64,000 nucleotides of DNA from Devosia sediminis. Lineage in GTDB: Bacteria > Pseudomonadota > Alphaproteobacteria > Rhizobiales > Devosiaceae. Positions 1-37,533 of the stretch are shown piece after piece. Made by a program: the position numbers and the translations under genes. The notes beneath the pieces are model-generated. The model saw only the letters and a list, made by a program, of their open reading frames with translations. It was not told the origin of the DNA and ran no database searches. The DNA lies in assembly GCF_016411825.1 (NCBI RefSeq), contig NZ_JAEKMH010000003.1, forward strand, positions 62,001 through 126,000. Reading direction: 5' to 3'. The first letter of the stretch is position 1. The number at the start of each line of letters is the position of its first letter.

Positions 1-863
1 TCGCCGTGGGCGTTGATGCCGCCGGCAACAAGGATGTCGGCGCCGGCGACCAGGGCATCATGTTCGGCTATGCCAGCCGCGAAACGCCCGAACTGCTGCC
101 CGCCCCGATCTATTATGCCCACAAGATCCTCGAGACCCTGACCACGGCGCGCAAGGCCAATCACGGCCCCGCCGGCAAGCTCGGCCCCGATGCCAAGAGC
201 CAGGTCACGGTGCGCTACGAAGGCGGCAAGCCGGTCGGCGTGACGCAGATCGTGCTCTCGACCCAGCATCTGGACGAGACGCTGACCTCGGCCGATGTGC
301 GCACCATTGTCGAGCCCTATGTGCGCGAAGCCTTGCCCCAAGGCTGGATCGACGACCAGACCGTCTGGCACGTCAACCCGACCGGCAAGTTCGTCGTCGG
401 CGGTCCGGACGGCGATGCCGGCCTCACCGGCCGCAAGATCATCGTCGACACCTATGGCGGCGCGGCTCCCCATGGCGGCGGCGCCTTTTCGGGCAAGGAC
501 CCGACCAAGGTCGACCGCTCGGCCGCCTATGCGGCGCGCTACCTCGCCAAGAACGTCGTCGCCGCCGGTCTTGCCGATCGCGCCACCATCCAGCTCTCCT
601 ACGCCATCGGCGTGGCCAAGCCGCTCTCGATCTATGTCGACCTCCACGGCACCGGCAAGGTCGACGAAGCCAGGCTCGAAAAGGCCCTGGCCGAGGTGAT
701 GGACCTGACCCCGCGCGGCATCCGCACCCATCTCGACCTCAACAAGCCGATCTATGCGAAAACCTCTGCCTATGGCCATTTCGGCCGCAAGGCCGGCCGC
801 GACGGCAGCTTCTCCTGGGAGAAGACCGATCTGGTGAAGGCGCTCAAGGCCGCCGTCGCCTGA
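1..863 (+). CDS. metK: S-adenosylmethionine synthase, C-terminal part (5' end outside window)
   Basis: Makes S-adenosylmethionine from methionine and ATP in the cytosol. The reading frame is open from the left edge, so roughly the first quarter of the protein is missing. The visible part carries the family signatures [12 protein letters not shown], the glycine-rich [15 protein letters not shown] segment with the following [12 protein letters not shown], and the C-terminal IGVAKP region. The product is the methyl donor for the adjacent tRNA methyltransferase TrmB, and metK-trmB is a common alphaproteobacterial neighbourhood. A rho-independent terminator follows within 25 bp, so metK ends its own transcript. 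Identification is very secure. Confidence 0.97.
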
Positions 864-883
864 GCTGACATTGGACATTGACC

Positions 884-928
884 GGGGGCCTCTTTTCCGC
901 GAAAGCGGCAGGGAGGCCCCCTCTTTTT
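884..928 (+). terminator. Rho-independent terminator after metK
   Basis: A 9-bp perfect stem (GGGGGCCTC at 884-892 pairs with GAGGCCCCC at 913-921) is followed directly by a T-rich run ending in TTTTT at 924-928. It lies between the metK stop and the trmB start. Confidence 0.8.
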
Positions 929-938
929 CAGATTGCCC

Positions 939-1643
939 ATGACCGACCACCAGCTTCCCAAGACCCGCTCCGGCGAGCCGCGCGCCTTTTTCGGCAGGCG
1001 TTCGGGCAAGACCTTGCACGAGGGGCAAAAGGCGCAGGTGGCCGAAGTTCTGCCGCAGGTCGAAATCGTCCTCGACGGCGCACTGGACCCCAGGACCCTG
1101 TTCTCTGAGGCGAAAAAGCTGGTCATCGAGATCGGCTATGGCGGTGGCGAGCATCTGGCACGCAAGGCAAGCGAAGAGCCCGAGACCGGCTTTATCGGCT
1201 GCGAGGTCTTTACCGGCGGCATCGGCAAGATGGTTCAGGCCATCGACGCCAACGGCCTCGGCAATGTGCGCCTTTATACCGACGATGCGCTGAAGCTGCT
1301 GATGGCCCTGCCCGATGCGTCGGTAGATGCGGTCTACCTGCTCTATCCCGATCCCTGGCCCAAGAGCCGCCACCACAAGCGGCGCTTTGTCTCGCCCACC
1401 ACGCTTGACCAGTTGGCGCGGGTGATCCGTCCGGGCGGCATGTTCTACTTCGCTTCCGACATCGAGGACTATGCCAACTGGACGCTGGCCCACATCGTGC
1501 GCGAGCCGCGCTTCCGCTTCGAGGCGGAGGCCCCCGGGAGCTGGCACCAGCCCTATCCGGGCTGGCAGCCGACCCGCTATGAGCAGAAGGCGCGGCGCGA
1601 GGGACGGATGATCAGCTTCTATTTCGCCTTCGTCCGGGTGTAA
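939..1643 (+). CDS. trmB: tRNA (guanine-N7-)-methyltransferase
   Basis: Methylates G46 in the variable loop of tRNAs, using SAM. The SAM-binding loop IEIGYGGGEHLARKA is seen near residue 65, and the diagnostic TrmB segment YPDPWPKSRHHKRRFV follows around residue 133. Its length (234 aa) is typical. The in-frame TTG at 933 lies only two codons upstream; the ATG at 939 is the more likely start. No strong Shine-Dalgarno sequence is visible because the metK terminator T-tract sits just upstream, so trmB may be translated from a short leader or from its own promoter within the 75-bp gap. Confidence 0.95.
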   Translation: MTDHQLPKTRSGEPRAFFGRRSGKTLHEGQKAQVAEVLPQVEIVLDGALDPRTLFSEAKKLVIEIGYGGGEHLARKASEEPETGFIGCEVFTGGIGKMVQAIDANGLGNVRLYTDDALKLLMALPDASVDAVYLLYPDPWPKSRHHKRRFVSPTTLDQLARVIRPGGMFYFASDIEDYANWTLAHIVREPRFRFEAEAPGSWHQPYPGWQPTRYEQKARREGRMISFYFAFVRV

Positions 1644-1739
1644 CGCTCCGGTCACCCTGCCAAACTTTCATCTTCGTCCTCTCTGGACCTTGGCGCCGAA
1701 TGCCCCATATCGGGTCTTCACGCCTCTCGGAGATGCCCC

Positions 1740-2108
1740 ATGTCTGCCGCCACCCGCCTCGACCCCGACTTGAGTCAGGATATTCTGGTGGTGCGGCCGA
1801 GCAAGTGGACGCTGGTCGTGGTGGTGCAGTTGCGCTCGGGAACCATGCGGTTCAACGAGCTCAGGCGCAATATGGGCGGGGTGCCGCAAAAGTCGCTGAG
1901 CCAGACACTGCGCGAACTGGAGCGCGATGGCTTCGTCACCCGCACGGCCTATGCGACCATTCCGCCGCGGGTGGATTATGACCTGACCGCGCTGGGGCGC
2001 GAACTGCTCGACCTGGCGGATCAGTTTCACCTCTTTGCCCAGCGCAACCGGGAGGCCGTGGTCGAAGCACGGCGCCAGTTCGATGCGCTGGATATCCGTC
2101 CGGCCTGA
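1740..2108 (+). CDS. HxlR-family winged-helix transcriptional regulator
   Basis: A 122-aa DNA-binding protein. The stretch KWTLVVVVQLRSGTMRFNELRR followed by QKSLSQTLRELERDGFV and PPRVDYDLTALGREL is the HxlR winged-helix core, almost from end to end. Many HxlR proteins sense reactive electrophiles or disulfide stress through an N-terminal cysteine. This protein has no cysteine at all, so that mechanism is excluded and the ligand is unknown. It stands alone between trmB and a convergent gene, so its target cannot be read from context. Confidence 0.88.
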   Translation: MSAATRLDPDLSQDILVVRPSKWTLVVVVQLRSGTMRFNELRRNMGGVPQKSLSQTLRELERDGFVTRTAYATIPPRVDYDLTALGRELLDLADQFHLFAQRNREAVVEARRQFDALDIRPA

Positions 2109-2158
2109 CGTCGGGCGGTTCGGGCGCCGCCATGGCTGGCGGCGCCGGGAGCGTCAGC

Positions 2159-2476
2159 TTACGGCGTGACGATTTCGTAGGTGTCCGGATCGAGATAGAT
2201 CATGGTCTGGTTGCCATCGGCTCCGGTAACCCAGGCCACGAGGTAGGACGAGCCCCATTCCTGCACCGAGCTGGCATCGATGCCCTTGTCCTTGAGGGCG
2301 GTCAGCGCATAGTCGCTGTCGAAATCGGAGTTCGACAGGCCGGTGGTCTCCGTGACCGAAGTGCCCTTCGAGGACGAGGAGTCGGAGTCCGACGAGTAGG
2401 ATGCGGCCATGGCCGGGGCGGCAAGACCGGCGAGAGCGGCGGTGGCGACGAGGGCGATAACTGTGTTCTTGATCAT
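2159..2476 (-). CDS. Small secreted protein, PepSY-like length, unknown function
   Basis: A 105-aa protein starting at the ATG complementary to 2474-2476, with AAGGA about 10 nt upstream. Residues 1-24 form a clear Sec signal peptide ending in APAMA. A low-complexity Ser/Asp linker (SSDSDSSSSKG) follows, then a compact domain of about 60 residues with DYALTALKDKGIDASSVQEW and YLDPDTYEIVTP. The domain size and the aspartate/tyrosine ending recall periplasmic PepSY-type modules, but I cannot assign a family. A longer in-frame upstream extension exists but lacks sense as a signal peptide. Confidence 0.72.
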   Translation of the reverse strand: MIKNTVIALVATAALAGLAAPAMAASYSSDSDSSSSKGTSVTETTGLSNSDFDSDYALTALKDKGIDASSVQEWGSSYLVAWVTGADGNQTMIYLDPDTYEIVTP

Positions 2477-2718
2477 GGGAGGATGATCCTTTCTGGTTTG
2501 AACGAACCGGAAATGGCCACCATCAGGATCGCCCGCAAGCGGCCCAAAACCACTTTTTTGCTCTTGAAATGGCGTCGCGCCATCCGAAGGTTTGATCAAG
2601 GAAATCAAGCGCTTCAAACGAAACATGGTATCCTTATGGAAACCGGGTTCCCCTTCGGTAAGCGCCAGTTGCAACCGGCCGGACAGGCTCGCTGTTTCTC
2701 ATGGAGAGGAGGGCCCAA

Positions 2719-3384
2719 ATGCAGGTCAGCGTCAGAATTCTCGACACCATCCCCGTTACCCACAATGTCCGCCACTATCGCCTGGAGCGCCCCAAGGGCT
2801 ACGGCTTTTCGCCCGGACAGGCCACGGAAGTGTCCATCGATCGCGATGGCTGGCGGGACCAGAAGCGCCCCTTCACCTTCACCTGCCTGCCCGATGCGGA
2901 CATGCTGGAATTCACCATCAAGAGCTACTTCGACCATAGCGGGGTCACCAATGAACTCTGGTCGCTGGGCTCAGGGGATCACCTCATCCTCCGCGATGTC
3001 TGGGGCACGATCCAGTATAAGGGGCAGGGGACGTTCATTGCCGGTGGCGCCGGGGTCACCCCCTTCATCGCTATTCTGCGGCATCTCAACGCCACGGGCC
3101 GGATCGCTGGAAACCGCCTGATTGTTTCCAATCGCACCGAAAAGGACATCATCCTGCTCGAGGAGTTCGAGGCCATGGAGGGACTCGAAGTCATCTGGAC
3201 CGTCACTGACGATCCGCGGTCAAAGCTCCTGCAGGAACGGATCGACGCCGCTTTTATGCGGAAGCACCTGCCGGACCTCGATGGCAATTTCTACCTCTGC
3301 GGTCCCGACGCCATGGTGGCCGACCTGCGCGGCCAGCTCGAAGAGGCTGGCGCCGATGTGGGCAAAGTCACCTGGGAAAAATGA
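2719..3384 (+). CDS. Ferredoxin-NADP reductase-type FAD/NAD(P)-binding oxidoreductase
   Basis: A soluble flavoprotein reductase of the FNR superfamily. The FAD-binding beta-barrel shows RPFTFT (variant of the RxYS flavin motif) near residue 50. The NAD(P) domain shows GGAGVTPF near residue 100 and the C-terminal CGPDAMV motif. The start at 2719 is preferred over the in-frame ATG at 2701 because GAGGAGGG lies 5-6 nt before it. At 221 aa it contains only the FNR module, with no ferredoxin or globin domain, so it must pass electrons to a separate partner that is not evident nearby. Flavodoxin/ferredoxin reductase and flavohemoprotein-like reductase are both possible. Confidence 0.85.
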   Translation: MQVSVRILDTIPVTHNVRHYRLERPKGYGFSPGQATEVSIDRDGWRDQKRPFTFTCLPDADMLEFTIKSYFDHSGVTNELWSLGSGDHLILRDVWGTIQYKGQGTFIAGGAGVTPFIAILRHLNATGRIAGNRLIVSNRTEKDIILLEEFEAMEGLEVIWTVTDDPRSKLLQERIDAAFMRKHLPDLDGNFYLCGPDAMVADLRGQLEEAGADVGKVTWEK

Positions 3385-3393
3385 GCCCCATGC

Positions 3394-4644
3394 TCAGCGG
3401 AAGGCCAGCTCGACGCTGTTCGGGCGGCGCTGGACAATAGCGGCATCCCAGGCATTGCCGCTCGACAACAGCTCCAGCGTTATGGCCTCGGGAATATCGG
3501 CCGAAGAGGCAACTTGCACTTCCGCGCCCCGCTCCCAAAGCGCGCGCACCGTGCAGTCGATGACCGACTTTCGGTCGTTGAACACCAGTCTGCCTGCCTT
3601 GAGCACCCGGCGCCGGTCGATCTTTTCGGCGACGGTGGCCGTGGTCGTGCCACGCCAGGCCATTGTCAGGTTGCGGCCCGCCCGCTTGGCTTCGTAGAGC
3701 GCCTCGTCGGCCTTGAGCAGCACGCTCTCGAGATCGTCGCGGCCGGGGTCGAGTGTCGCCACCCCGAAACTGGCCGATACCCTGATCGGTGGACGGCTGC
3801 CCGGAAAATCCAGCATCCGGAAGGCGAGGCGCAGCTTTTCGGCCACCGCCATGGCTGCCGGGCCATCGGCATCGGGCAGCACGGCCGCAAATTCCTCCCC
3901 GCCCAGCCGGCCAAGCAGGTCGCTCTTGCGCAAGCCGGTCTGGGCCGCCTGGGCAATGGCCTTGAGAACCATGTCGCCACCGGCATGGCCATAGAGGTCG
4001 TTGATTCTCTTGAAGTGGTCGATATCGAATGTCAGCACCGACAACTGGCTGCGGTGGCGGCGGGCCAGCGCAACATGCTTGTCCGCTTCGGCCTTGAAGG
4101 CCCGCCGCGTCGCAAGGCCCGTCAGTCCGTCGCTGGTGGCCAGCAGCCGCAATTCGAGTTCACTCATCACCACCTGCGCCAGCTCTTCGAGAATGGCGGT
4201 TTCGCGGTCCGAAAAATCGCGTGGGCTCCGGTCGATGGCACAGATCGTGCCGATCGTCTGGCCGTCCTCTGTTACCAGCGGCATGCCGGCATAAAAGCGC
4301 ACGCCATTGGGGGCGGTGACATGCGGATTGGCGCTGAAGCGGGGGTCCAGCGTGGCATCGGGCACGACCAGCGCCCGCGGGGAAAGCAGCGCATGCTGGC
4401 AGAAGCTGTCCCGCACCGGTACCTGGCTCAGCGGGGTGCCGAGCGCTGCCTTGTACCATTGGCGATGGGCGTCGATCATGGTGACGAGCGACGTTTCGAC
4501 GTCGAAGATCAGCCGAACCAGCCGGGCCACCCGGTCGAAGGCCGGCTCGGCCGGCGTATCGAGAATGTCGTACCGCTCCAGCGCCGCCAATCGCTCGATA
4601 TTGGCCACGGCCTGCTGGGTCTGCGAAACCGCCATTGTGTCCAT
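3394..4644 (-). CDS. GAF-GGDEF diguanylate cyclase with C-terminal PilZ-like domain
   Basis: Predicted cytosolic diguanylate cyclase making c-di-GMP from two GTP. Domains: GAF at about 20-165; GGDEF at about 175-335, with the catalytic GGEEF at 248-252 and an intact feedback-inhibition site RKSD exactly five residues before it; and a C-terminal segment (about 343-416, RRRVLKAGRLVFNDRKS onward) resembling alphaproteobacterial PilZ domains. In that segment the (D/N)xSxxG motif is degenerate (ALWERGA). The start chosen, complementary to 4642-4644, has GGGAAG upstream; an extended frame to 4743 reads through a perfect hairpin and is less likely. The hairpin overlaps the Shine-Dalgarno sequence, suggesting translational control. 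Confidence 0.87.
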   Translation of the reverse strand: MDTMAVSQTQQAVANIERLAALERYDILDTPAEPAFDRVARLVRLIFDVETSLVTMIDAHRQWYKAALGTPLSQVPVRDSFCQHALLSPRALVVPDATLDPRFSANPHVTAPNGVRFYAGMPLVTEDGQTIGTICAIDRSPRDFSDRETAILEELAQVVMSELELRLLATSDGLTGLATRRAFKAEADKHVALARRHRSQLSVLTFDIDHFKRINDLYGHAGGDMVLKAIAQAAQTGLRKSDLLGRLGGEEFAAVLPDADGPAAMAVAEKLRLAFRMLDFPGSRPPIRVSASFGVATLDPGRDDLESVLLKADEALYEAKRAGRNLTMAWRGTTTATVAEKIDRRRVLKAGRLVFNDRKSVIDCTVRALWERGAEVQVASSADIPEAITLELLSSGNAWDAAIVQRRPNSVELAFR

Positions 4645-4653
4645 GGATTGCTT

Positions 4654-4714
4654 CCCGGCTCTTGCTGTTGCCGCCATCTTCGTCAGGAAAGTGGCGGCAA
4701 CAGCAAGAGCCGGG
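4654..4714. repeat. 23-bp perfect inverted repeat at the 5' end of the GGDEF gene
   Basis: Arms 4654-4676 and 4692-4714 are perfectly complementary over 23 bp with a 15-nt loop. In the GGDEF mRNA the outer end of the hairpin contains the GGG of the likely Shine-Dalgarno sequence, 10 nt before the ATG. There is no T-tract, so it is not an ordinary terminator. Confidence 0.85.
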
Positions 4715-4775
4715 TCACCCGAACCCGATATTTTCCCATTCATTGTTTACGAGCCCTTGCCGGGGTGACCCACCC

Positions 4776-4804
4776 TTGCGCTGGTCGCGATCCGGGTCTA
4801 TATG
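4776..4804 (+). promoter_or_regulatory. Probable sigma70-type promoter of the rimP operon
   Basis: TTGCGC (4776-4781), a 17-bp spacer and TATATG (4799-4804). Transcription would start near 4811, some 20 nt before the attenuator-like hairpin. Confidence 0.45.
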
Positions 4805-4830
4805 AGGCCAACATCGTTGCTCTCATTCGA

Positions 4831-4861
4831 GAGTGGGTGCCGGAAGGCCCCCGCTCTTTTT
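4831..4861 (+). terminator. Attenuator-like terminator in the rimP leader
   Basis: GAGTGGGTGCC (4831-4841) pairs imperfectly with GGCCCCCGCTC (4846-4856), with one wobble and one mismatch, and is followed by TTTTT (4857-4861). It lies about 55 bp before the rimP start, downstream of the probable promoter, so it would act as a premature terminator or attenuator of rimP-nusA-ylxR-infB. Confidence 0.6.
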
Positions 4862-4916
4862 GTTTATCAATGGCCATTTCCGCGCCGCGCGGGGAAGGCC
4901 CAAGGCGAAGATAGGC

Positions 4917-5540
4917 ATGGCTTTCGACCTCACCGAAAAGCGCTACATCAAGGAAACCGGGCTCGAAGCCCGTATCTCCCGCATTGTCGAGCCGGTGGCC
5001 AATGACCTGGGCTTTGCGCTGGTCCGGGTGAAGATCACGCCGGAAAACGGCTGCACCCTGCAGATCATGGCCGAGGATGAGAACGGGCGCTTCACCATCG
5101 TGGACTGCGAGGCCCTTTCCAAGGATCTCTCGCCTGTGCTCGACGTCGAAGACCCGATCGACCGCGAATATCACCTGGAAGTGTCCTCGCCCGGCATCGA
5201 CCGGCCGCTGGTCCGCAAGCGCGACTATGAACGCTTCCTCGGCCACGAGGCCAAGGTCGAGCTGCTCGACATGATCAATGGACGCAAGCGCTTCCGTGGC
5301 GACATTGCCGCCGTCGATGACGAGGGCGTCACCATCCGCCTGCCCGATGCTCCGGGCGGCACCGATCCCGATCACAAGCTTGCCTTCGGCACCATTGCCG
5401 AAGCCAAGCTCGTGATGACCGACAAGCTCATGGACATGGCTCGCGCCGACCAGGAGCTGCACCCCATCGACGACGACGAGACCGAGACGGTCGAATTTGC
5501 CGATGCCGATAATGACGATATCTCTGAGGAGAAGAACTGA
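4917..5540 (+). CDS. rimP: Ribosome maturation factor RimP
   Basis: Needed for assembly of the 30S ribosomal subunit. The protein shows the RimP core: LGFALVRVKI near residue 35, the CEALSKDLSPVLDVEDPI segment, YHLEVSSPGIDRPL (the best RimP signature) and a C-terminal SH3-like domain. An acidic tail of about 30 residues (DDDETETVEFADADNDD) extends past the usual end. The ATG at 4917 is chosen; the longer frame to 4833 would translate through the attenuator hairpin. It is first in the rimP-nusA-ylxR-infB operon, one base before nusA. Confidence 0.95.
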   Translation: MAFDLTEKRYIKETGLEARISRIVEPVANDLGFALVRVKITPENGCTLQIMAEDENGRFTIVDCEALSKDLSPVLDVEDPIDREYHLEVSSPGIDRPLVRKRDYERFLGHEAKVELLDMINGRKRFRGDIAAVDDEGVTIRLPDAPGGTDPDHKLAFGTIAEAKLVMTDKLMDMARADQELHPIDDDETETVEFADADNDDISEEKN

Positions 5541-5541
5541 A

Positions 5542-7146
5542 ATGGCCGTTAGCGCGAACCGCCTCGAGCTGTTGCAGATTGCCGATTCCGTCGCCCGCGA
5601 AAAGAACATCGACCGCATGGTCGTGATCGAGGCGATGCAGGATGCGATGGAAAAGGCCGCCAAGGGCCGCTATGGCGCCGAGACCGAGATCAAGGTCGAG
5701 ATCAATCCGCGTTCGGGTGAGACCCGCATGTGGCGCCTGCTCGAGATCGTCGACGAGGTCGAAGAGCCCTCCCGCCAGGTCAATCTCAAGTTTGCCCGGA
5801 CCAAGTCGCCCGAGGCCAAGGTCGGCGACTTCCTGACCGAGCCGCTGCCGCCGATGGAATTCGGCCGCATCGCCGCCCAGTCGGCCAAGCAGGTCATCGT
5901 GCAGAAGGTGCGTGACGCCGAGCGCGACCGCATGTTCGAGGAATATACCGGCCGCGTCGGCGAAATCGTCAACGGCACCGTCAAGCGCGTCGAATATGGC
6001 AATGTCATCGTCGATCTGGGCCGTGGCGAAGCCATCATCCGCCGCGACGAACTGATCCCGCGTGAAATGTTCCGCTATGGCGATCGCGTCCGCGCCTATA
6101 TCTACGACGTCCGCCGCGAACAGCGCGGGCCGCAGATTTTCCTCTCGCGCACGCATCCGCAGTTCATGGCAAAACTTTTCATGCAGGAAGTGCCGGAAAT
6201 CTACGATGGCGTCATCACCATCCGCTCGATCGCCCGTGATCCGGGTTCGCGCGCCAAGATCGCCGTGACCAGCAATGACTCGTCCATCGATCCGGTCGGC
6301 GCCTGCGTCGGTATGCGCGGTTCGCGCGTGCAGGCGGTTGTCGCTGAACTGCAGGGCGAAAAGATCGACATCATTCCCTGGACTGACTCGATTGCCGACC
6401 TCGTGGTTTCGGCGCTGCAGCCGGCCGACGTCGCCAAGGTCGTGCTCGACGAGCAGGCCGAGCGCATCGAGACCGTGGTGCCCGACGACCAGCTCTCGCT
6501 CGCCATCGGCCGCCGCGGCCAGAATGTGCGCCTCGCCAGCCAGCTTATCGGCTGGGATATCGACATCCTGACCGAGCAGGAAGAAAGCGAACGCCGTCAG
6601 AAGGAATTCACCGAACGCTCGGCCCTGTTCATGCAGGCCCTTGACGTTGACGAGATGGTTGCCCAGCTATTGGCTTCGGAAGGCTTCTCCTCGGTCGAGG
6701 AACTGGCCTATATCGAACCGGCCGAAATCGCCTCGATCGACGGCTTCGACGAAGAGACCGCCGGCGAAATCCAGAACCGCGCCGCCGAATATCTCGCCGA
6801 GATCGACGCCAAGTTCGATGCCGAGCGCAAGGCGCTGGGCGTCGAGGACGACCTCTACGAAATCCCGGGCCTCAATGCCGCCATGCTGGTGGCCTTGGGC
6901 AAGGAAGACATCAAGTCGGTCGAGGACTTCGCCGGCTGTGCCGCTGACGATCTCGTCGGCTGGACCGAACGCAAGGATGGTGAAACCAAGCGCTTTGACG
7001 GCACTTTCAAGGACTTCCCCGTGTCCCGCGAGGAAGCCGAGGACATGATCATGCAGGCCCGCATCCGTGCCGGCTGGATCAGTGCCGATGACCTGCCGGC
7101 CGAAGAGGGCGGCGAAGACGGCTATTCCGAGGAGGAGGCGGTCTAA
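5542..7146 (+). CDS. nusA: Transcription termination/antitermination factor NusA
   Basis: Binds RNA polymerase and nascent RNA to modulate pausing, termination and antitermination. A 534-aa protein with the N-terminal polymerase-binding domain (about 1-130), an S1 domain (about 134-200, [15 protein letters not shown]), two KH domains (about 200-345, ending at [16 protein letters not shown]) and a C-terminal pair of acidic helix-hairpin-helix repeats (about 360-500, with [19 protein letters not shown] and [16 protein letters not shown]). The start at 5542 is one base past the rimP stop, with GAGGAGAAG in front, so the two are translationally linked. Confidence 0.97.
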
Positions 7147-33503: not shown

Positions 33504-34559
<1,056 letters not shown>

Positions 34560-34575
34560 CGCCGACCCGCTAGGG

Positions 34576-34600
34576 CAAATCTCTCCGGTGGAGAGATTTG
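34576..34600. repeat. Perfect 11-bp hairpin after the ABC operon
   Basis: CAAATCTCTCC (34576-34586) pairs with GGAGAGATTTG (34590-34600) around a 3-nt loop. It has no U-run. It sits between the last stop codon and the terminator and could protect the operon mRNA 3' end or be part of a dispersed palindrome. Confidence 0.7.
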
Positions 34601-34663
34601 AGGCAAGGAGGCCATGAGCGCTATGCGCAAATGGCGGAGCGCCGCCCCTCCTAGGCACGCTCC

Positions 34664-34697
34664 AACACCCTCGGGCCTTTCCCGAGGGTGTTTTGTT
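34664..34697 (+). terminator. Strong terminator of the ABC operon
   Basis: AACACCCTCGGG (34664-34675) pairs with CCCGAGGGTGTT (34681-34692), a 12-bp perfect stem with a 5-nt loop, followed by TTGTTT. It separates the operon from the Shedu genes. Confidence 0.92.
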
Positions 34698-34848
34698 TGG
34701 GCGGGATGGGGGTGGGGAGCGGACTGGCAGGTTTTGGCAATCAAGTCGACAAGTCGGACCTGCGCCCCTGTGGATTACGTCGCAACGCGAGACTCTCGCT
34801 AAGTAGAACGGATATGTTTGGTATCAGGATTTCTGTGCTGGGAAGATT

Positions 34849-36030
34849 ATGTCGGACGGCGATGAAACGTACTTTTGGGGACGCATCCCCCGATACACGT
34901 ATTACTCGCGACGCATCAGCGCCATCTTTGAACGGCCGGTGAGCCCGAGGCGGTTTCTTCATCGTGTGATCGAGGGCAAAGGCGGGGTGGTGGCTATGAA
35001 GGAAGGTAAAGAGGTTGTCTTGCGTGAAGCAGAAGCCGCCCGGTACCAGCTAAAGGCAACTCTGTACGAGGACGACCACCAGATAACGAACCTCACCTTC
35101 CAGAAGTGGAACAACAAGGGTGGACCCAACAAGGAGATCGCCTTCTCCCTGCGCGGTCGAGAGATTGACGAGTTGCTCCACTTCATCCGCTCTTCCGAGA
35201 CGATGATTTTTGTTGATGAGCAAGGCGGCCGGGTGTCCGACCGTACCTTGGTACAGTCCACGTTCGACCGGCGACAGATTGCTCGCGTGCTCGTGGAAGA
35301 CCCCACCCTCCTGAATGCCGTGCTGGAGAACGACATCGAGGCGCAAGACATAGTGGGGCTGGCACGCAGACGCCGCGAGCTTGCCCACTTCCGCCAGATG
35401 CTCGATGACGCTGATTTTCGGCAAGCCGAAGCCGAGAAGAAAAAGAGTCTTGAGGCAGCTTGGCAGGCCTTCTTTGAACGGAACACTTGGATATTCGGCT
35501 ACGGCCTGTCCTACATAGCCATGTCAGAGCTGGACGGTCGGGCCCTGCGGAACAAGGTGGCAGGCTACAACATCAGCGGGCGGGGCAAGGAGGTGGACGG
35601 GCTGATGAAGACCGTGGCGGCCATCAACTCCCTGTGTTTTGTCGAGATCAAAACGTCTGACACCCAGCTGGTCAAATACTACCGCCCAGGCGTTTTCGCT
35701 CCGAGCGTTGAGCTTGCGGGGGCCGTCTCACAAATTCAGGTGACGGTGCAGCGCGCTCTTGAGGACCTGACCGAGGTATATCAGCCGACGCATCTGGAAA
35801 GCGGCGATCCAACCGGCGAGACCCTGTTCCAGTTCCAGCCACGGTCGTTCCTGGTTGTTGGCAACCTTGGCGAGTTTCAGACGCCCGAAGGCACCAACAA
35901 GGACAAATTCAGGTCGTTCGAGCTGTTCCGCCGCTCGCTCAGATGGCCGGAGGTACTGACCTTCGACGAGCTATATGCGCGGGCGCGGTTCATTGTGGAG
36001 GATGCGTCGGCCGAGGGTAAGGCTGAGTGA
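34849..36030 (+). CDS. Shedu-type anti-phage nuclease (SduA, DUF4263)
   Basis: A 393-aa protein whose C-terminal half matches the Shedu/DUF4263 PD-(D/E)XK nuclease. The helix-strand ERNTWIFGYGL (210-220) precedes GKEVDG with Asp250 and FVEIKTSDTQLV with Glu266 and Lys268, together the D...ExK catalytic set; RPGVFAPSVELAGAVSQIQ continues the fold. Shedu proteins are known as single-gene anti-phage defences. The N-terminal 195 residues are not recognisable and probably sense the invader. The stop codon overlaps the next gene's start (GTGA), so the two are coupled. Codon use by eye is less GC-biased than that of neighbours, which fits horizontal gain. Confidence 0.85.
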   Translation: MSDGDETYFWGRIPRYTYYSRRISAIFERPVSPRRFLHRVIEGKGGVVAMKEGKEVVLREAEAARYQLKATLYEDDHQITNLTFQKWNNKGGPNKEIAFSLRGREIDELLHFIRSSETMIFVDEQGGRVSDRTLVQSTFDRRQIARVLVEDPTLLNAVLENDIEAQDIVGLARRRRELAHFRQMLDDADFRQAEAEKKKSLEAAWQAFFERNTWIFGYGLSYIAMSELDGRALRNKVAGYNISGRGKEVDGLMKTVAAINSLCFVEIKTSDTQLVKYYRPGVFAPSVELAGAVSQIQVTVQRALEDLTEVYQPTHLESGDPTGETLFQFQPRSFLVVGNLGEFQTPEGTNKDKFRSFELFRRSLRWPEVLTFDELYARARFIVEDASAEGKAE

Positions 36031-36902
36031 GCCAGAAGCTGGGGAAGAGAAGCCGAAGCCGAGCAGAGGTGATGTCACGCGATGGCGAGTGCATCTATTG
36101 CGGCCAGCCCACCACGCACCAAGAGCATATGCCGCCCATTGGTATGTTCCGCAAGCGGGACCGGGCGAGCGGGATGGAGTTTGCCACCTGTGCGGCGTGC
36201 AATAATGGAACGAGTGCTGCCGACCTAGTGGCCAGCTTCATGGCGCGGATAGACGCCAATGGGGCACTGGGCGACTGGCGCTTTCAGGAGGCTTTTGCCC
36301 AGCGGAACATGCTCATGGAGCTTGCCCCGGGCTTTCTAGCCGAGCTTCTAAGCCCTGCCCGCGTCGAGCCTGTCCTATTAAACACCAACGGCGTACTTAC
36401 CCGTCAGGCCATGATTAAAGCCGATGGTCCGCTGACCAAAGCATACCTAGACGTTTTCAGCGCAAAATTGGGCATGGCCTTGTATCGAGAGCACACCGAC
36501 TCCCGATTGCCCGACCACGGCGGGGTGCAGGCGTGGTGGTATCTCAACTTCGGGCTGGCCATCAAAGACGTCGAGCAGATGTTGTCCATCATGCCTTTGG
36601 CCGGTCGGCTAGCTCAAGGGCGAAAGACATCAGATGGGCAGTTCAACTACCGTTGCAACACAGACAACAAAAGTATTGTAGTGGCCCTCGTATCCTTCCA
36701 CGACAACCTGCACGTGTCGTTTGCAGCTACATCGGATCCGCAGTTTTACAATCTGCCGTTCGAACACCCGCGAGCGCGGTTCACGAAGCCAGGTCAGATT
36801 GCCGGGATGATGCCCAAGGTGACGCCGTCGCAGCTTATTATGCTGCCAGGGCTCGGCGGGGCGCCCTATACATCCCTCCGAATACCCGCGCGGCGCGCGT
36901 AA
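36027..36902 (+). CDS. HNH-like zinc-finger protein coupled to the Shedu gene
   Basis: A 291-aa protein starting at GTG, inside the stop of the Shedu gene. The N-terminus has a treble-clef/HNH pattern: CIYC (22-25), HQEHMPP with Glu33-His34, then CAACNNGTSAAD with Cys55, Cys58 and Asn59. CxxC - EHxxP - CxxCN is the layout of HNH endonuclease-like families. The remaining 220 residues are without recognisable motifs and rich in aromatic and hydrophobic residues (VQAWWYLNFGLAI). The tight coupling suggests a partner of the Shedu nuclease: second nuclease, regulator or effector. The family is not identified; catalytic activity is unproven. Confidence 0.72.
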   Translation: MSQKLGKRSRSRAEVMSRDGECIYCGQPTTHQEHMPPIGMFRKRDRASGMEFATCAACNNGTSAADLVASFMARIDANGALGDWRFQEAFAQRNMLMELAPGFLAELLSPARVEPVLLNTNGVLTRQAMIKADGPLTKAYLDVFSAKLGMALYREHTDSRLPDHGGVQAWWYLNFGLAIKDVEQMLSIMPLAGRLAQGRKTSDGQFNYRCNTDNKSIVVALVSFHDNLHVSFAATSDPQFYNLPFEHPRARFTKPGQIAGMMPKVTPSQLIMLPGLGGAPYTSLRIPARRA

Positions 36903-37030
36903 TCACTCTATCAAATGAATGTCGGCTTTCGGGAATTAGAGGTTAGGGCCTCCACGACTGAGACGGGGTCGAACGCCGCCACTCCAAAACACTTATCCCC
37001 GCCCCCAAATTCCGCCCCATACTGCCCCCA

Positions 37031-37072
37031 TCCCCGTCACACACGCGGCCCCGACGCAGGGTCGGGCGGGGA
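37031..37072. repeat. REP-like palindrome
   Basis: Nested inverted repeat: TCCCCG (37031-37036) with CGGGGA (37067-37072) outside, and CCCGAC (37050-37055) with GTCGGG (37061-37066) inside. The bases from the end of the HNH-like gene (36903) to here show no gene or other signal. Confidence 0.55.
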
Positions 37073-37171
37073 GGATCGGATGGAGAGGGCGCTCTCCTGC
37101 GTGGGTAGAAAACTTCGGCGCTGTCTGGCGCCAGCCTGACGGCACCCCCTTAAACATGGGACCGGACGGCT

Positions 37172-37339
37172 GGGGTCACCTATCGGACAGCGCAGATGCG
37201 CCGGCAGCCGGACCCCAAAGGTACCGCCTGAGGACCGGGCCCCCTAAGCAAGCCGATGCCGTGACGAACGGCCAGTGGCTCAGTTCTTGAACGTTCGTTT
37301 GGGCCGCCGGCCGTTCGTTACCGTGCACCCGATAGCCCC
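37172..37339. ncRNA. Candidate structured RNA between the Shedu island and tRNA-Gly
   Basis: About 168 bp without a credible ORF that fold on paper into a closed structure. The ends pair (GGGG + CTATCGG at 37172-37186 with CCGATAG + CCCC at 37329-37339). An inner perfect stem, ACGAACGGCC (37264-37273) with GGCCGTTCGT (37309-37318), extends outwards by wobble pairs. Its tip has a further 8-bp stem, GTGGCTCA with TGGGCCGC. The length and a closing stem recall 6S RNA, but the large left-hand bulge does not, and I could not match it to any known RNA. Strand undetermined. Confidence 0.35.
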
Positions 37340-37408
37340 ATGGGCGAGGCGGGACCTCTGCACGTCCAGCGCACAAATCCGCGCATTTAACGACAACCCG
37401 AAAACAAC

Positions 37409-37435
37409 AAAGGCCGGACTGCTGTCCGGCCTTTT
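37409..37435. terminator. Bidirectional terminator next to tRNA-Gly
   Basis: AAAGGCCGGA (37409-37418) pairs with TCCGGCCTTT (37425-37434), a 10-bp stem with 6-nt loop. On the minus strand it lies 24 bp past the tRNA 3' end and is followed by TTTGTTGTTTT, so it terminates the tRNA transcript. On the plus strand it could end a transcript from the structured region. Confidence 0.88.
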
Positions 37436-37458
37436 GTCGTATCCCGATCTTGGGAAAT

Positions 37459-37533
37459 TGGAGCGGGCGATGGGATTCGAACCCACGACCCTAACCTTGG
37501 CAAGGTTATGCTCTACCCCTGAGCTACACCCGC
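37459..37533 (-). tRNA. tRNA-Gly(GCC)
   Basis: 75 bases on the minus strand including an encoded CCA. Acceptor GCGGGTG pairs with CGCCCGC; D-arm GCTC..GAGC; anticodon stem AACC/GGTT around the loop TTGCCAA, anticodon GCC; T-arm GTGGG-TTCGAAT-CCCAT. The 3' end faces the Shedu genes, the usual orientation for integration of mobile islands. Confidence 0.97.

Follow-up and report, generated by a model that had tools for sequence, protein, structure and literature searches.

We find that the two overlapping genes at positions 34849–36902 of the window analysed here (64,000 nucleotides of Devosia sediminis, contig NZ_JAEKMH010000003.1) are probably a single-gene Shedu system and an independently mobile HNH-like gene, both of them cargo of a variable site next to a tRNA-Gly gene. 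The first, sduA (34849..36030, plus strand), starts with ATG and encodes a 393-aa Shedu anti-phage nuclease, as judged by its Pfam and PADLOC matches. The second, which we call the HNH-like gene (36027..36902, plus strand), starts with GTG and encodes 291 aa with a CxxC-EHxPP-CxxCN finger at residues 22–59. The two genes overlap by four nucleotides, GTGA, which hold the stop codon of sduA and this GTG, and the start is backed by relatives that begin in register (MSQKLGKRSRSR in the window, MNQKLGR in L010, MNQKLGRKSRSR in L075). The overlap, start codon and length given in the original prediction agree with the coordinates, and the start also with the relatives. Its central proposal, that the second protein is an obligate partner in an undescribed two-gene defence system, is not borne out: a known type of Shedu stands next to an uncharacterised mobile gene.

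The identity of the first gene, predicted to encode a Shedu/DUF4263 nuclease, was confirmed by profile searches. Residues 4–388 match the PADLOC SduA model PDLC00394 (E 5.9e-137), while Pfam SduA_C scores 94.1 bits (cut-off 27; E 1.3e-26) and places the PD-(D/E)XK domain at residues 200–376. The solved SduA 8ti8 is matched at E 1e-9, and 8ti9 is a further solved relative. No Pfam match passes its cut-off over the N-terminal part, though PDLC00394 spans it. The proposed catalytic residues Asp250, Glu266 and Lys268 show no variation among 8 aligned SduA proteins; a broader alignment of 7 keeps Glu266 and Lys268 without exception, but Asp250 is absent from its list of invariant positions. The relatives found are at most 44% identical over near-full length, with no closer kin for comparison, and the structure model of SduA was poor (mean pLDDT 54.7) and was left out of further use. 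In a review (PMC12904381), Shedu is described as an autoinhibited nuclease relieved by DNA-end binding, with its specificity thought to reside in a variable N-terminal clamp. The window SduA, by its family, would be a PD-(D/E)XK nuclease that presumably detects phage DNA through its N-terminal region. It resembles known Shedu in the near-full-length model match and in the catalytic D-E-K residues, and differs in its distance from the relatives found and in the HNH-like gene that overlaps its 3' end.

Both genes sit between an ABC-transporter ATPase gene (33504-34559) and tRNA-Gly (GCC) (37459..37533, minus strand), which is followed by a thioredoxin-type gene. A terminator-like hairpin (34664..34692, plus strand) lies 3' of the ABC-transporter ATPase gene and upstream of sduA, in a scan that returned 4 such sites versus 3.7 in shuffled sequence. 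The cassette genes have a G+C content of 0.59 and a third-position G+C of 0.70–0.73, the two flanking genes 0.64–0.68 and 0.83–0.86. For comparison we took the corresponding stretches of 12 out of 75 genomes of the same genus, picked by their thioredoxin-type match. tRNA-Gly (GCC), the 3' end of which faces the cassette, is present in 12/12 of these stretches and forms the conserved right edge of the variable site. In eight the fetched stretch also takes in the left-flank ABC gene, and the interval from there to tRNA-Gly measures 1.7 to 5.7 kb and contains other ORFs. The variable site corresponds to 34560-37458 of the window, and counterparts with different ORFs are seen in L111-L114, L116, L117, L119 and L121, the last having two tRNA-Gly genes 73 bases apart. 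By tblastn neither sduA nor the HNH-like gene occurs at the site in any of the 12 same-genus stretches. In the three same-genus genomes that do have the HNH-like gene, it lies on a different contig from the thioredoxin-type gene or is hundreds of kilobases away from it.

It is less straightforward to say what the second protein is. No Pfam, NCBIfam or PADLOC model reaches its threshold on it, and similarity to Pfam HNH_5 is sub-threshold, seen for 3 of 16 members with a best E of 0.011. Cys22, Cys25, Glu33, His34, Cys55 and Cys58 are invariant among 16 aligned HNH-like proteins, so the finger is not mere chance; in an alignment of 15 members, position 33 is Glu or Asp. The finger part of the prediction stands as a conserved CxxC-EHxPP-CxxCN motif with a plausible HNH reading, but without a curated HNH model that passes. 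The AlphaFold2 model (mean pLDDT 82.8, pTM 0.84) has strands at 31–34 and 51–54 and a helix at 56–74. Such a strand-strand-helix order is that of the beta-beta-alpha nuclease core. Foldseek comparison of the model with the PDB and with viral models gave no match at E 1e-3, and the C-terminal part of about 200 aa is without a known match. The N-terminal finger part of a 15-member profile matches proteins of about 190–240 aa (E 2e-5 to 9e-4) that, judged by eye, resemble ordinary HNH endonucleases.

With Pfam HNH_5 and related HNH endonucleases (PDB 4h9d) the protein has in common the CxxC-(D/E)H-CxxCN finger and the predicted order of secondary structure; it differs in falling below all curated thresholds, in lacking the middle Asn and in its long C-terminal part. 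The middle Asn of the H-N-H triad is Met50 in the window protein and hydrophobic in relatives, according to a sub-threshold alignment with 4h9d (E 0.31). For this reason, together with the sub-threshold models and the lack of a fold match, we name the protein HNH-like and not a proven HNH nuclease. The same Met50, along with the replacement of Asn59 by Gln in 2/16 relatives and the sub-threshold Pfam HNH matches, would fit a protein that keeps the HNH scaffold but is no nuclease, acting instead as a zinc-finger regulator or DNA-binding protein. We consider this unlikely, since Glu33-His34 is kept in 16/16 proteins, the strand-strand-helix order is predicted and the finger profile reaches HNH-type proteins. 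Most likely the protein would act as a separate nuclease with a recognition part of its own at the C-terminus. Septu PtuAB combines the HNH protein PtuB with the ATPase PtuA, and there too a small HNH-type protein is encoded second in a defence operon. The HNH-like protein differs, having no PADLOC match and SduA instead of an ATPase as its operon neighbour, and a Septu-type HNH was ruled out for the second gene on these two grounds.

The HNH-like gene is mobile. Matches were found in 5/136 genomes of the family and 4/397 of the order, the own genome counted in both, and in 7/72,556 plasmid records. A search of 50,697 phage records at E 1e-5 gave no match to the HNH-like protein or to SduA, though relatives of both are present in IMG/VR contigs. 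A search with a six-sequence alignment placed the gene at 10 genome-contig loci and 7 viral-contig loci. A class-wide profile search of 385 genomes gave 29 with a match, many being HNH proteins outside the family that were matched through the finger only; these 29 loci (1.5 kb flanks), in which no SduA was seen, were kept out of the set used for co-occurrence. Reading loci by eye, we see the gene as a lone insertion between housekeeping genes in L012 and L016, and near lysozyme-, resolvase- or integrase-like genes in the viral-contig copies L074, L078 and L079, where it looks like prophage cargo. Its settings thus include plasmids and viral contigs as well as isolated insertions. In Novosphingobium (L069, 4956-5810) a stop interrupts the gene, and that copy may be inactive. 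The gene would most likely be stand-alone defence or prophage cargo, with a presumed anti-phage role and a presumed independent function.

The company it keeps includes other defence genes. Of 23 non-viral HNH-like loci, at least 6 have a PADLOC-named one (E 1e-15 or lower) no further than about 5 kb away: PDC-S71 in L011, SduA and GajAB in L018, GajA with a partial GajB in L019, dCTP deaminase in L066, a TIR gene (PDC-S66) in L067 and a type IV restriction enzyme in L017. Among those neighbours in L010 that were scanned, none matched a PADLOC model strongly. L018, on the Agrobacterium plasmid pQ15_94_4, has the gene order SduA, DUF5677, HNH-like, and the HNH-like gene is again the last of an overlapping operon. 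These observations would fit an optional, promiscuous accessory that enhances or regulates Shedu, Gabija or TIR operons when adjacent to them. Against it stand the lone insertions and the prophage-like copies, as well as the lack of any preferred neighbour: 86 selected neighbours match 123 PADLOC families at E 1e-15, and no family matches more than two of them. The 52 control proteins match 7 families, but they are an unmatched set, drawn from the window and a single locus in its relatives; for this reason, and as the matched member was not reported, we withhold an enrichment statistic. One of the 86 strongly matches RT_III-A. Taken with that caveat on the controls, an accessory role seems improbable to us, somewhat more so than a non-nuclease finger protein.

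The sister of the L018 gene, in L067, is 65% identical to it; its operon contains TIR genes and a DUF5677-type gene but no SduA. The DUF5677-type protein there is 43% identical to its L018 counterpart and falls below the Pfam cut-off. In this Rhizobiales isolate, positions 267-5828 hold a possible six-gene operon (TPR-S/TIR-like, DUF5677-type, TIR, unknown, poly-gamma-glutamate hydrolase-like, HNH-like), which might be an undescribed defence module.

Co-occurrence of the two genes was tabulated from both sides, as had been named beforehand as the check on the two-gene claim, and adjacency turned out not to be conserved, the outcome that the original prediction had named as speaking against it. 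From the HNH-like side the set comprised 30 loci outside the window (14 chromosome or plasmid, 9 further genome and 7 viral contigs), after L063 was dropped for sharing a contig with L011, and L001, L002, L024 and L152 for being the window itself. SduA was present in the fetched flank of one of them, L018, flanks being about 6 kb at most and several cut by a contig end. From the SduA side, at E 1e-3, the HNH-like gene was absent from all 26 loci with flanks of about 4–5 kb where contigs allow, from 23 loci with flanks of about 1.5 kb (four of their genomes are also in the first set) and from seven viral-contig loci. This makes 0/56 SduA-matched loci, or 52 without repeats; several are weak or fragmentary (for example, L044 and L137-L144 have no match to the SduA profile at E 0.1), L051 is nearly the same as L052, and the plasmid part took in 14 of 35 records with SduA matches. 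Two neighbours of SduA were considered and rejected as members. A Phaeobacter 'HNH endonuclease' (L053, 5185-5877), 144 bp after SduA, has no family-profile match at E 0.1. In L047 (3219-3947), the HNH-type protein directly upstream of SduA gives a weak match through the finger alone (E 0.0095).

Shedu relatives usually lack a close co-directional partner of any kind: by a simple ORF call, an ORF of at least 80 aa begins within 60 bp past the end of SduA in 7/36 loci. PMC12137116 describes a Vibrio Shedu that works as a single gene adjoining an independent two-gene system. No Shedu-HNH pair appears in the titles or abstract openings among the literature matches listed, a coverage that leaves the two main Shedu papers outside and does not establish absence from print.

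The L018 case deserves a closer look. The SduA there falls in a different PADLOC subgroup (PDLC00384, E 9e-145) and is 28% identical to that of the window over 197 residues. A tree of 29 proteins requires, by its starred branches, that association with SduA arose twice. It does not settle the place of the window protein, which by path is nearest to L010 and L011, both without SduA; for each of the two SduA-adjacent genes the nearest rows by path lack SduA, and the two do not form one group. SduA_C is present in 23/397 genomes of the order; with genes placed at random, the number of SduA neighbours expected for 30 loci is 0.004, against the one observed. The single case thus exceeds chance, which the clustering of defence genes would explain. 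An obligate two-gene Shedu-HNH system, for which the GTGA overlap and the recurrence beside a different SduA subgroup could be cited, is highly improbable given one joint occurrence in 30 HNH-like loci, none in 56 SduA loci, separate positions on the HNH tree and so distant SduA partners. Against the view of a single-gene Shedu beside an independent mobile gene it can be said that the 4-nt overlap could reflect function, that L018 is one independent SduA-DUF5677-HNH operon and exceeds chance, that several flanks stop at contig ends and that the SduA relatives compared are distant. We nevertheless favour that view. Given the overlap, co-expression of sduA and the HNH-like gene is likely at this locus, where the latter would be read together with its neighbour.

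The Shedu part of the locus is ordinary and the pair as such is of low interest; what novelty remains is the HNH-like family itself. Tentatively, its members may form an unrecognised family of mobile stand-alone anti-phage nucleases that travel on prophages and plasmids, settle in defence islands and have twice joined Shedu operons independently. On the same tentative reading, the family, found here mainly in Alphaproteobacteria, would join its finger to a C-terminal part without a known match. The analysis keeps a 4-nt overlap from turning a single-gene Shedu into a supposed new system of two genes. The mobile and as yet unnamed HNH-like family, which occurs in viral contigs and next to more than one kind of defence system, is the better first target for functional work.
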